DNA of 41,134 nt. Origin: Sedimenticola sp. (lineage in GTDB: Bacteria > Pseudomonadota > Gammaproteobacteria > Chromatiales > Chromatiaceae). The notes under the pieces were generated by a model. It was not told where the DNA came from, did not search any database, and saw only the letters and a program-made list of their open reading frames with translations. The stretch lies in assembly GCA_027008705.1 (NCBI GenBank), contig JALVEB010000040.1, positions 1-41,134 on the forward strand, written 5' to 3'. Below, in pieces: positions 10,985 through 33,182 of the stretch. Position 1 is the stretch's first letter. Every line of letters begins with the position of its first letter. The position numbers and the translations under genes were made by a program.

Positions 10985-11015
10985 GAGCGGTCCGGTATAT
11001 TTGACCGTTTCGCTC
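10985..11015 (+). promoter_or_regulatory. Hairpin in the leader of the alpha cluster
   Basis: In the 73-base gap before rpsM, GAGCG (10985-10989) pairs with CGCTC (11011-11015), and CGGT (10993-10996) with ACCG (11004-11007), leaving small internal loops. In E. coli the rpsM leader carries the S4-binding pseudoknot that controls this operon; this hairpin is a candidate equivalent, but a pseudoknot partner was not found. Confidence 0.35.
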
Positions 11016-11049
11016 AGGCAGTTATTCGCTTATTTAGCAGGAGTTATTC

Positions 11050-11406
11050 ATGGCACGTATCGCAGGTGTCAACGTACCTGATCGCAAGCATGCGATCATC
11101 GCATTACAGTCGATCTACGGGATCGGCCCAAGTCGTTCCGCGGCCATTCTGGCGGCTACCGGCGTCAAGCCGGATATGAAGATCCAGGATCTCTCCGAGG
11201 GGGAGCTGGAAGCGATTCGTGCCGAAGTGGCGAAGCTGACCGTCGAGGGCGATTTGCGGCGCGAGGTGTCCATGAATATCAAGCGTCTGATGGACCTGGG
11301 CTGCAATCGCGGGATCCGGCATCGTCGCGGGCTGCCGGTGCGCGGCCAGCGCACGCAGACCAATGCGCGCACGCGCAAGGGTCCGCGCCGCCCGATTCGC
11401 AAATAA
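11050..11406 (+). CDS. rpsM: 30S ribosomal protein S13
   Basis: The 118-residue product starts [20 protein letters not shown] and ends with the basic tail [12 protein letters not shown] that touches P-site tRNA. S13 is in the 30S head and forms intersubunit bridges. An AGGAG site precedes the ATG at 11050. Confidence 0.98.
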
Positions 11407-21038: not shown

Positions 21039-21069
21039 GTAGGCCCGAATCAAGCGCAGCGGATCGGGC
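21039..21069 (+). repeat. REP palindrome, copy 1
   Basis: A GTAG head is followed by GCCCGAATC and GATCGGGC arms around AAGCGCAGCG; one extra A interrupts the left arm. The same unit occurs at 38866, 38952, 39062 and, degenerate, 39172. A GTAG head plus palindrome is the form of REP sequences moved by REP-associated tyrosine transposases. Confidence 0.75.
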
Positions 21070-21126
21070 AATAGCGCCAAGCTTTTGAAATCACGAAACG
21101 TCAAGCGAAATCAAGCGCGATTGCCC
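21066..21126 (+). repeat. 61-bp inverted-repeat element, copy A
   Basis: The 12-bp ends GGGCAATAGCGC and GCGCGATTGCCC are inverted copies with one mismatch. It is about 90% identical to copy B (31090-31150) and more distant from copy C (39197-39257); all are exactly 61 bp. The first four bases are shared with the REP in front. Confidence 0.85.
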
Positions 21127-21147
21127 TGGCCGCTCGCCCGGCTTCGA

Positions 21148-29373: not shown

Positions 29374-31057
29374 GGAAACAAAGAAAACCAACTTCATTCG
29401 GCAGATCATCGAGGCCGACATCGCGGCCGGGAAAAACGGCGGCAAGGTGCGCACGCGCTTCCCGCCGGAGCCCAACGGCTATCTTCACATCGGGCATGCG
29501 AAATCGATCTGTCTGAACTTCGGCATCGCCGAGGATTACCCCGGCGCGACCTGCAATCTCCGTTTCGACGATACCAACCCGGAGAAGGAAGAGGCCGAAT
29601 ACGTGGAAGCCATCCAACGCGACGTCCATTGGCTGGGCTACGATTGGGGCGATCGTCTGTATTTTGCTTCCGATTACTTCGAGCAACTCTATCAATTTGC
29701 TGTTCAACTGATTGAAATGGGTAAGGCTTTTGTCTGCGATCTCTCGCCTGAAGAGATGCGCGCCTATCGCGGCACCCTGACCGAGCCGGGGCGCGAAAGC
29801 CCTTACCGGGAACGCTCCGTGGCCGAGAACCTGGATCTGTTCGCGCGCATGCGCGCCGGCGAGTTTCCGGACGGCAGCCGCACCCTGCGGGCCAGGATCG
29901 ACATGGCCTCGCCGAATCTCAACCTGCGCGATCCGACGATCTACCGTATCCGCCGCGGCCTGCGCCACCACCAGACCGGCGAGGCCTGGTGCATCTTCCC
30001 GATGTACGATTTCACCCACTGCCTCTCGGACATGCTCGAAGGCATCACCCACTCGCTGTGCACGCTGGAATTCGAAGACCACCGGCCACTCTACGACTGG
30101 TATCTGGACACCCTGAAAACCCCATGCCATCCGCGCCAGATCGAATTCTCGCGCTTGAATCTGGAATATACCGTGGTCAGCAAGCGCAAGCTGACCCAAC
30201 TGGTCGAAGAGGGCATCGTCGATGGCTGGGACGATCCGCGCATGCCGACCATCGCCGGCCTGCGCCGCCGGGGCGTGACCCCGGCGGCGATCCGCGAGTT
30301 CGCCGACCGCATCGGCGTCACCAAATCCGATAACCTCGTCGAGATGGGCCAGCTCGAAAACTGCATCCGCGATGACCTGAATCAGAACGCGCCGCGCGCA
30401 ATGGCCGTGCTCCGGCCGCTGAAGGTCGTGCTGACCGACTATCCAGAGGAACGCGAGGAATGGCTAGAGGCACCCCTGCATCCGCAGCGCGCCGAGATGG
30501 GCACGCGCCGCATCCCGTTCAGTCGCGAACTGTGGATCGATCGCAACGATTTCATGGAGGTGGCGCCGAACAAGAAATTCAAGCGCCTGGTCGCCGGTGG
30601 CGAGGTGCGCCTGCGCAATGCCTATGTCATCCGTTGCGACGAGGTGATCCGCGATGACGCCGGCGAGATCGTCGAGCTGCGGTGCAGTCACGATCCAGCC
30701 ACCCTCGGCGCCAACCCGGAAGGCCGCAAGGTCAAAGGCGTGATCCACTGGGTCTCGGCGCGTCATGCAATACGCGCCGAGGTGCGTCTCTATGACCGCC
30801 TGTTCGATCATCCAACGCCGGACAACGCGCGCGACGGCTCCAGCTTCCTTGAGCACATAAACCCCCACAGCCTGGAAGTGATCGAAGGCGCGATGCTCGA
30901 AGGCGGCCTCGCCGAAGCCGAGCCGGGCCAGGCCTGGCAGTTCGAGCGTGAAGGTTATTTCTGTCGCGATGACGGTAGTGAAGGCTTGGTGTTCAACCGC
31001 ACCATCACCTTGCGCGATACCTGGGCGAAGATCGAAAAACAGGCGCGCCAGGCCTGA
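29366..31057 (+). CDS. glnS: Glutaminyl-tRNA synthetase
   Basis: The 563-residue class I enzyme charges tRNA-Gln directly. Motifs: [15 protein letters not shown] with HIGH at 41-44, NLRFDDTNP, and the KMSKS-type VVSKRKL. The C-terminal anticodon-binding beta-barrels are complete. ATG 29366 lies within the end of gltX; TTG 29348 is an alternative but breaks the usual N-terminus. GlnRS is typical of Gammaproteobacteria. Confidence 0.95.
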
Positions 31058-31077
31058 CGGTCGGAGAGCGGTGCGCT

Positions 31078-31163
31078 ATGGAAGCCGCAGGGCAATCGCG
31101 CCAAAATTTTGAAATCAGGAAACGTCAAGCGAAATGAAGCGCAATTGCCCTGATGGAAGCCGC
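31078..31163 (+). repeat. 11-bp direct repeats flanking 61-bp element copy B
   Basis: ATGGAAGCCGC occurs at 31078-31088 and again at 31153-31163, directly on both sides of the 61-bp element. This looks like a target-site duplication. The site lies 20 bases after the glnS stop. Confidence 0.65.
31090..31150 (+). repeat. 61-bp inverted-repeat element, copy B
   Basis: The ends GGGCAATCGCGC and GCGCAATTGCCC are inverted with one mismatch. The interior shares TTTTGAAATCA and AAACGTCAAGCGAAAT with copy A. It is the only copy not joined to a REP. Confidence 0.85.
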
Positions 31164-31178
31164 GCTTCGAATTGCTGT

Positions 31179-31212
31179 GCGGGCTGTAGGCTGCTACCAT
31201 GGCCCGCTTTTT
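31179..31212 (+). terminator. Hairpin with T-run between glnS and thrS
   Basis: GCGGGC (31179-31184) pairs with GCCCGC (31202-31207), with a shorter inner TAG/CTA pairing, followed by five T. It could terminate the gltX-glnS transcript or act in the thrS leader. Confidence 0.55.
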
Positions 31213-31232
31213 CGTTACCGATGCAGGATCAT

Positions 31233-31253
31233 GTGATCTCGCGTATGGATCAC
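31233..31253 (+). promoter_or_regulatory. thrS operator resembling a tRNA-Thr anticodon arm
   Basis: GTGATCT pairs with GGATCAC (six Watson-Crick pairs and one T-G) and leaves a 7-base loop CGCGTAT. CGT occupies the anticodon places 34-36, followed by A at place 37. The hairpin sits directly before the ribosome-binding site, with CGT at -30 to -28. E. coli thrS has an operator of the same design that ThrRS binds to block ribosome access. Confidence 0.7.
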
Positions 31254-31271
31254 CACTGAAGGAGAGCGCGA

Positions 31272-33182
31272 ATGCCCGAAATCACCCTTCCCGATGGTTC
31301 GAAGCGTCATTTCGACCACCCTGTGACGGTGGCCGAGGTCGCCGCCGATATCGGACCGGGGCTGGCCAAGGCCACATTGGCCGGCAAGGTCGACGGCCGC
31401 CTGGTTGACGCCAGCTACCCGATCGCGCAAGACGCGGAGGTTGCGATCGTTACCGACAAGGACGAGGAGGGCCTGGAGATCCTCCGCCATTCCACCGCCC
31501 ACCTGCTGGCGATGGCGGTGAAGGAATTGTTCCCTGAGGCGCAGGTCACCATCGGGCCGACCATCGACGACGGCTTCTATTACGATTTTTCCTATCAGCG
31601 CCCGTTTACGCCGGAAGATCTGCAAGCCATCGAAAAAAAGATGGCGGAGCTGGCGAAACAGGATTTCCCGATCACGCGGAAGGTGATGAATCGAGAGGAA
31701 GCGATTGAATTCTTTCGTGGAATCGGTGAGGAATACAAGGCCGAGATCATCGAGGCCATCCCCGCGGGCGAGGAGCTTTCGTTATACAGCCAGGGCGATT
31801 TCACCGACCTGTGTCGCGGTCCCCATGTGCCGAGCACCGGAAAGCTGAAGTCGTTCAAGCTGATGAAGCTGGCCGGAGCCTACTGGCGTGGCGACTCCAA
31901 CAACGAGATGCTGCAACGCATCTACGGCACCGCGTGGCGCAACAAAAAAGAGCTGAAGGCCTATCTGCATCGTCTCGAAGAGGCCGAGAAACGCGATCAT
32001 CGCCGCATTGGCAAGGCGCTCGACCTCTTCCATGCGCAAGAAGAAGCGCCGGGCATGGTGTTCTGGCACGACAAGGGCTGGCGCGTCTACTTGCAGATCG
32101 AGCAATACATTCGCGACAAGCTGCGTGAACACGGCTATCAAGAGGTACACACGCCGCAGATCATCGATCGCAGCCTGTGGGAGAAGTCCGGGCACTGGGA
32201 GAAGTTCCAGGAGATGATGTTCACGACGCATTCCGAGAACCGTGATTTCGCAATCAAGCCGATGAACTGCCCGGCGCATATCCAGATCTACAACCACGGA
32301 CTGAAATCCTATCGCGATCTGCCGCTGCGTCTTGCCGAGTTCGGCTCCTGTCACCGCAACGAGCCGTCGGGCACCTTGCACGGTCTGATGCGGGTGCGTA
32401 ACTTCACCCAGGACGACGCCCACATCTTCTGTACCGAAGAGCAGATCCTCGACGAGGTCTCGGCGTTCATCGATCTGCTGTTCGAGGTCTACCGGGATTT
32501 CGGTTTCGACGAGGTGCTGGTCAAGCTTTCGACCCGTCCCGAGCAACGCGTCGGCGCCGACGAACTCTGGGACAAGGCCGAGCGCTCGCTCGAAGAGGCG
32601 CTGAATCAGAAAGGACTGGAGTGGGAGCTGCAACCGGGCGAGGGCGCCTTCTATGGTCCGAAGATCGAGTTCTCGTTGCGTGACTGCCTGGGGCGCGTCT
32701 GGCAGCTCGGCACCATCCAACTGGATTTCTCGATGCCGGAACGGTTGGGCGCCCACTATGTCGCCGAGGACAACCGCAAGCGCGTGCCGGTGATGCTGCA
32801 CCGCGCCATCCTTGGCTCGCTGGAACGTTTCATCGGCATCCTGATCGAGCACTATGCCGGCGCGTTGCCGGTGTGGCTGGCGCCGACCCAGGCGGTGGTG
32901 ATGAACATCACCGATCGTCAGGAGTCGACGGCGCGAGAGATCACGCAAAAGCTTGCCGATACCGGTTTTCGCGTAGAATCCGACTTGAGAAACGAGAAAA
33001 TCGGTTTTAAAATTCGAGAACATACCTTGCACAAGGTGCCGTATCTGCTGGTCGTCGGGGATCGCGAGGTAGAGAACGGCACGGTCGCGGTGCGCACGCG
33101 CGCCGGCGAGGATCTCGGCGCCATGCCGGTCGGGGATTTCATCCAGCGCTTGCGCGATGAAACCGGCCGGCGTGGCGCCTGA
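31272..33182 (+). CDS. thrS: Threonyl-tRNA synthetase
   Basis: The 636-residue class II enzyme has an N-terminal TGS domain (1-60), the editing domain with His73 and His77 in RHSTAHLLA and Cys in DLCRGPHVP, the catalytic core with zinc ligand Cys in PMNCPAH, and a C-terminal anticodon domain. It charges tRNA-Thr and removes Ser mischarged on it. The GGAGAG ribosome-binding site is next to the operator hairpin. First gene of the thrS-infC-rpmI-rplT-pheST order. Confidence 0.97.

Follow-up and report, generated by a model that had tools for sequence, protein, structure and literature searches.

The stretch of DNA analysed (the window, 41,134 nt, from Sedimenticola sp.) carries glnS (to nt 31057), a gap of 214 bases and thrS (nt 31272–33182, plus strand), followed by infC, rpmI, rplT, pheS and pheT; glnS, thrS and infC were named by matches and the last four genes from their translations. 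The product of thrS is a threonyl-tRNA synthetase (ThrRS) of 636 aa, in which domain and structure matches recognise the TGS, second additional, catalytic and anticodon-binding domains. The leader of thrS holds a hairpin (nt 31233–31253, plus strand) that reads GTGATCT CGCGTAT GGATCAC, with a 7-bp stem, the innermost pair of which is T-G, and a 7-nt loop. When numbered as in the anticodon arm of a tRNA, the loop has C31242, G31243 and T31244 at positions 34–36 and A31245 at position 37, and the triplet CGT lies at −30 to −28 relative to the thrS ATG. A previous sequence-only reading had described this stem, loop, triplet, A37 and distance from the start, and it proves exact on inspection of the letters. 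Position 33 is G, where U is usual in tRNA, and 7 of 87 elements share this G. Taken together, sequence, alignment, covariation and the covariance model R1 (described below) point to an anticodon-arm mimic, the counterpart of domain 2 of the Escherichia coli thrS operator. The triplet (nt 31242–31244, CGU in the RNA) includes G31243 and U31244, both invariant in the elements of relatives according to sequence and loop counts. Below the stem, UCA (nt 31229–31231) forms the 5' side of a short lower helix, seen as pairing columns 7/33, 6/34 and 5/35 in the alignment, with UGA (nt 31257–31259) as its partner. The latter is the end of a conserved 3' flank, CACUGA (nt 31254–31259), the first half of which (CAC, nt 31254–31256) lies in an internal loop. 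Directly 3' of the element and on the same strand is AGGAG (nt 31260–31264), read from the sequence as a putative Shine-Dalgarno motif.

The remainder of the gap holds two further structures. At nt 31088–31152 there is a hairpin repeat of about 65 bases with 14-nt arms that are 93% complementary; it is flanked by direct repeats of 11 nt (nt 31078–31088 and 31153–31163), has another copy in the window at nt 21066–21128, and occurs at 41 or more places in the genome, query included (40 of 100 candidates scored). It resembles a mobile or REP-like repeat that has inserted between glnS and thrS, and as a dispersed sequence with at least that many genomic places it was rejected as a second operator domain. 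Between this repeat and the mimic is a GC-rich hairpin followed by five T (nt 31179–31212, with a terminator-like site listed at nt 31189–31204), which could end glnS transcription or could occupy the place of operator domain 4, though without a GU loop. A promoter scan found no sigma-70-like promoter between glnS and thrS. Searches of Rfam (the whole window at gathering threshold and five loci at E ≤ 1) gave no match at the thrS leader; elsewhere in the window, nt 10993–11082 matched the alpha operon ribosome binding site, a known ribosomal-protein leader, at 38.5 bits (gathering threshold 38).

Leaders of related thrS genes were obtained by searching 38 near genomes, 35 of which matched, with the N-terminal part of ThrRS, and a named genome collection, from which 80 loci were kept, with the whole protein. 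A recurrent element, GTG(G/A)(C/T)C(T/C), loop, (G/C)G(G/A)(T/C)CAC CACTGA, is found before thrS in these relatives, with base 34 at −26 to −40 from the start codon (one at −54). It is present in 31 of the 80 named loci after false rows had been removed by eye (28 of 80 by a stricter pairing and flank rule), the carriers including Thiolapillus, a Solemya symbiont, Marinobacter, Neptuniibacter, Allochromatium, Thiohalocapsa, Zooshikella and Stutzerimonas. Two Methylophaga leaders (L036, L040) carry a diverged form, and at the thrS loci of Nitrosomonas, Massilia, Bordetella and Legionella the element was not seen by eye. In a leader from the same genus (L003) the core, nt 31232–31259, is letter-identical while the sequence further out differs. 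The E. coli leader (L032) reads GTGATCT TTCGTGT GGGTCAC CACTG, and its hairpin is taken as domain 2 of the known operator, matching the anticodon-like hairpin before the start that is described in the available parts of three papers (PMC9976931, PMC11088916, PMC3858243). The operator of E. coli comprises domains 1–4, domain 2 being the anticodon-like arm, and shares with the window the gene, the hairpin size, a near-identical stem, G35-U36, the CACTG flank, and a Shine-Dalgarno motif just 3'. The place is also shared, with the triplet at −30 in the window and −33 in E. coli. The two leaders differ in the loop (UUCGUGU in E. coli, CGCGUAU in the window), in the dispersed repeat (nt 31088–31152) that lies in the leader gap of the window, and in the number of anticodon-like arms, of which E. 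coli has two, as stated in the portions available of PMC9976931 and PMC11088916, and the window one, a second not having been found.

Alignment A1 consists of 49 distinct leaders, left from 59 rows after ten were removed by eye (nine without the flank or off-place, and one duplicate genome). The arm and flank proved homologous to domain 2 of the E. coli operator, the E. coli row standing in both A1 and the model R1 derived from it. The stem is kept by compensatory change, in an alignment that was partly selected by pairing: pair 13/25 is C-G in 29 leaders and U-A in 19, pair 12/26 is G-U in 17, G-C in 15, A-U in 14 and unpaired in three, pair 10/28 is U-A in 46 and C-G in three, and pair 9/29 has a single C-G. 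Overall, 94% of stem cells and 66.5% of those in the lower helix (drawn with five pairs) are paired, percentages that lean high because of the selection; the free exchange of C-G and U-A does not follow from it. In the lower helix, columns 7/33 are paired in 49/49, 6/34 in 47/49 and 5/35 in 29/49, and the internal loop, which has CAC in its 3' strand, lies between this helix and the stem. The innermost stem pair is broken in 18 of the 49, so the loop is often longer than 7 nt. The covariation score of 0.269 compares with 0.197 in 500 shuffles, none of which reached it, and with at most 0.118 for slid versions of the structure, while the count of further pair types in A1 was not above shuffles (119 of 500 as high). 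Covariation of the stem in relatives, which had been suggested as a check, is therefore present.

Covariance model R1 was built from the 49 leaders of A1, E. coli row included, and scored at most 24 candidates per genome in the class and 22 in the phylum, so that weak matches can be missed. Among 276 genomes of the class it returned 132 matches at E ≤ 0.05, in 117 genomes, of which 93 were at E ≤ 1e-6. The window has one match, the element at nt 31233–31253, which at 47.7 bits is 14th of the 132 matches listed. A ThrRS search of the same genomes located thrS in 268, and gene places were taken for the best-scoring 150 of these 268, so that the rates given for positions before thrS apply to the nearer half. 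In the 150 placed genomes all 71 strong matches (E ≤ 1e-6) lie 3–33 nt before thrS on the same strand and none lies elsewhere; at E ≤ 0.05 the corresponding numbers are 81 before thrS and 16 elsewhere. A further 22 strong matches belong to genomes with no listed thrS place, and 17 of the 18 that were read precede thrS, giving a total of 88 directly before thrS out of the 89 strong matches placed or read (93 strong in all). The one that does not (G292:C18) corresponds to nt 151–189 of locus L159, a near-identical second copy of the thrS leader element of that genome with one letter different over 39 bases, no thrS downstream, and a hydrolase-like reading frame on the opposite strand. In 299 genomes of the phylum, 51 had a match at E ≤ 0.001; 50 of them belong to the same class and the one outside is weak (2e-4). 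The element is thus widespread in the class and not universal: 70 of the 150 placed genomes have no R1 match before thrS, and when these 70 leaders were read by eye nothing like the element was seen in about 60. The other ten (L011, L176, L182, L229, L238, L242, L247, L248, L260, L261) appear by eye to have a diverged arm with NGU and a purine at 37 and without the CACTG flank; they were picked by looking for GU, and so provide no test of GU.

Conservation of the loop was surveyed with a rule that requires five of the six outer pairs, followed beyond the stem by C(A/G)CT, and leaves the loop free. Applied to 188 distinct thrS start-codon contexts, in which one gene may count more than once, it found 87 distinct elements. 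G35 and U36 are present in 87/87, position 37 is A in 79 and G in eight, position 33 is U in 77, G in seven and A in three, and position 34 is C in 56, G in 26, U in three and A in two. The loop columns of R1 favour GU, and 42 of the 87 elements occur only in loci fetched through R1 matches; the 45 in loci not fetched with R1 have GU in 45/45, with C (27), G (15), U (2) or A (1) at position 34. In the sequence-only reading, relatives were expected to keep both the stem and the CGT. The stem is indeed kept with compensatory changes and GU is invariant, but C34 varies, so the claim for the whole triplet was too strict, and the element itself is missing from some 60 of 150 genomes. G35 and U36 are threonine identity bases, to which a table in the review PMC9976931, as far as its text was available, adds G34 for Bacteria. 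The Sedimenticola genome has tRNA-Thr with GGU and UGU anticodons; tRNA-Thr(CGU) was not found among the typed tRNAs (29 plus the tRNA-Pro of the window, from 30 fetched of 37 matches in a 244-contig assembly), the remaining seven matches being 82–90 bases long. If this tRNA is missing, C34 of the mimic copies no resident tRNA, which would mean that position 34 matters little.

The number of arms varies between leaders. Neither the window nor leader L003 from the same genus showed a convincing second anticodon-like arm, the counterpart of domain 4; in the window, hairpins having GT within loops of 6–11 nt were listed, and none stood out as such an arm. The arm scan of the E. coli leader shows an upstream hairpin with a UGU loop. 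Two arms are present in L050, L151 and L176, and also in L260, where the second was recognised by eye; L181 (G057:C108:3150-3650) has, in tandem before thrS, three arms (loops CGU, GGU and CGU), two of which are matched by R1. Upstream hairpins with GGU loops occur in two Neptuniibacter leaders and in Amphritea, with CGU in Oceanospirillaceae L078, and with UGU and CGU in Stutzerimonas and L156, and in all seven Marinobacter leaders NGU and a purine can be read in a hairpin upstream, a post hoc reading. Taken across all leaders, upstream GU arms show little or no general excess: GU was not enriched in upstream hairpin loops (11 of 184 hairpins, against 6.9 of 97 in shuffles), nor was GT beyond −52 (17 of 143, behind GC with 20 and GG with 18), and another scan gave a modest excess, with GT in the best arm of 12 of 86 leaders (mean of 300 shuffles 5.2, maximum 12). 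Claims of two arms therefore rest on single lineages.

On balance, energy folding counts against the hairpin in the window leader. The isolated 21-mer (nt 31233–31253) folds into it at −6.3 kcal/mol (z −2.2), the minimum-energy fold of nt 31061–31330 includes it, and nt 31225–31263, the fifth of five pieces in the folding test, gave it a probability of 0.91. In the four other pieces (nt 31225–31275, 31166–31275, 31205–31300 and 31058–31330) an alternative fold is better by 3.1–4.2 kcal/mol and the probability of the hairpin is 0.00–0.04. In the 51-base leader piece the arm's UCGCGU is paired with GCGCGA next to the start codon (nt 31239–31271), and in the 110-base piece the arm pairs differently. 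The UCGCGU/GCGCGA pairing could act as a switch, but as it was not seen in the same-genus leader it is probably incidental. These folds, the dispersed repeat in the leader gap and the lack of a detected second GU arm are what would be expected if the element had been inherited and were nonfunctional here, in a leader that misfolds and an operator spoiled by the inserted repeat and the missing arm. Such a relic is improbable, given that the core is identical in the same-genus leader even though the outer sequence differs, and that the window has one of the best R1 scores. Poor folding is also seen in many relatives, so the measure says little: across the 87 elements the median probability of the hairpin is 0.52, with values above 0.5 in 47, 0.97 in E. 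coli and 0.05 in L003. Covariation was taken as a better witness than energy folding.

Structure matches to the window ThrRS include 1kog, which we take to be the E. coli enzyme with its operator. Residues 1–633 align with E. coli ThrRS (1qf6, E 5e-284), and the TGS and second additional domains required for repression in E. coli are both present; the need for N-terminal domains in regulation there is stated in the accessible part of PMC7373986. With the evidence from relatives, it is very probable that the thrS mRNA contains an autogenous operator for translational control, of the kind known from E. coli thrS. The hairpin would present G35 and U36 (with C34 and A37) like the anticodon arm of tRNA-Thr, and the remaining steps are modelled on E. 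coli. With more ThrRS than tRNA-Thr present, the anticodon-binding domain of the enzyme would bind the hairpin, the rest of the bound enzyme would cover the adjoining Shine-Dalgarno motif and exclude the 30S subunit, and synthesis of ThrRS would fall; tRNA-Thr, by competing for the enzyme, would relieve the repression. The hairpin lies right next to the ribosome binding site, and conservation of its CACUGA flank equals that of the stem, features that would also suit a translation element read by some factor other than ThrRS (a ribosomal protein, a ribosome standby site or an RNase), with the GU loop as signal. This is very unlikely, as the element stands before thrS and not other genes (71/71 strong matches in placed genomes), the fixed and free loop positions fit threonine anticodons, and the E. 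coli counterpart is bound by ThrRS according to the portion available of PMC11088916.

Hairpin shape alone is weak evidence, because dinucleotide-shuffled windows contain a mean of 2.0 hairpins with a 7+7 stem and loop and CGT (60 shuffles, both strands; the window has three on the plus strand and none on the minus strand), and it is position and conservation that carry weight. A chance origin of the CGT-loop hairpin is contradicted by conservation, covariation and position in relatives, and can be dismissed as having practically no likelihood.

By sequence comparison, then, the hairpin belongs, outside the enterics, to the same kind of operator as that of E. coli thrS. Control of this kind beyond the enterics had been predicted; R1, covariation and the invariant GU support it, with binding by ThrRS and repression carried over from E. 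coli. Its spread suggests that the element descends from an operator that predates the enterics. A broader proposal, to which we give roughly even odds of being correct, is that the thrS operator is an old gammaproteobacterial RNA family assembled from anticodon-arm modules whose number differs between leaders: the window has one, L181 three in tandem, and E. coli, Marinobacter, Pseudomonas-like leaders and several others two. Its modules would keep G35-U36 and a purine at 37 while the stem and position 34 drift, thus recording the anticodon contacts of ThrRS, and arm number would tune the stoichiometry or steepness of repression.

T-box RNAs are likewise leaders of synthetase genes, and sense tRNA by pairing with it through a codon-like specifier, whereas here the loop itself is the anticodon; Rfam gave no T-box match in the window. 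In yeast, AspRS and HisRS bind anticodon-like arms in mRNAs in a similar way (PMC7373986 and PMC6542539, in the parts available), but these concern other amino acids and eukaryotic mRNAs, and homology is not claimed. PMC2965389, in its accessible text, briefly mentions E. coli ThrRS among transcriptional cases.

The spread over Gammaproteobacteria is not claimed as new. Older work may have compared some species. The open-access literature, in the parts that were available, describes the thrS operator for E. coli only, and a class-wide spread was not found in it, older papers lying outside this scope (PMC9976931, PMC3858243, PMC3997798, PMC11088916, PMC7373986, PMC9956033, PMC2659441, PMC2965389, PMC6542539, PMC13148393, PMC12323667). 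The spread has no matching Rfam entry, and R1 is a covariance model that could be filed. ThrRS is the target of borrelidin, and the available part of PMC13148393 offers the hypothesis that an E. coli mutation in the thrS leader gives resistance by weaker repression. The findings carry the textbook tRNA mimicry of E. coli beyond the enterics, where evolution has kept G35-U36 in every element seen and left position 34 free, and the natural leaders with one, two and three arms provide material on how many ThrRS sites repression needs.
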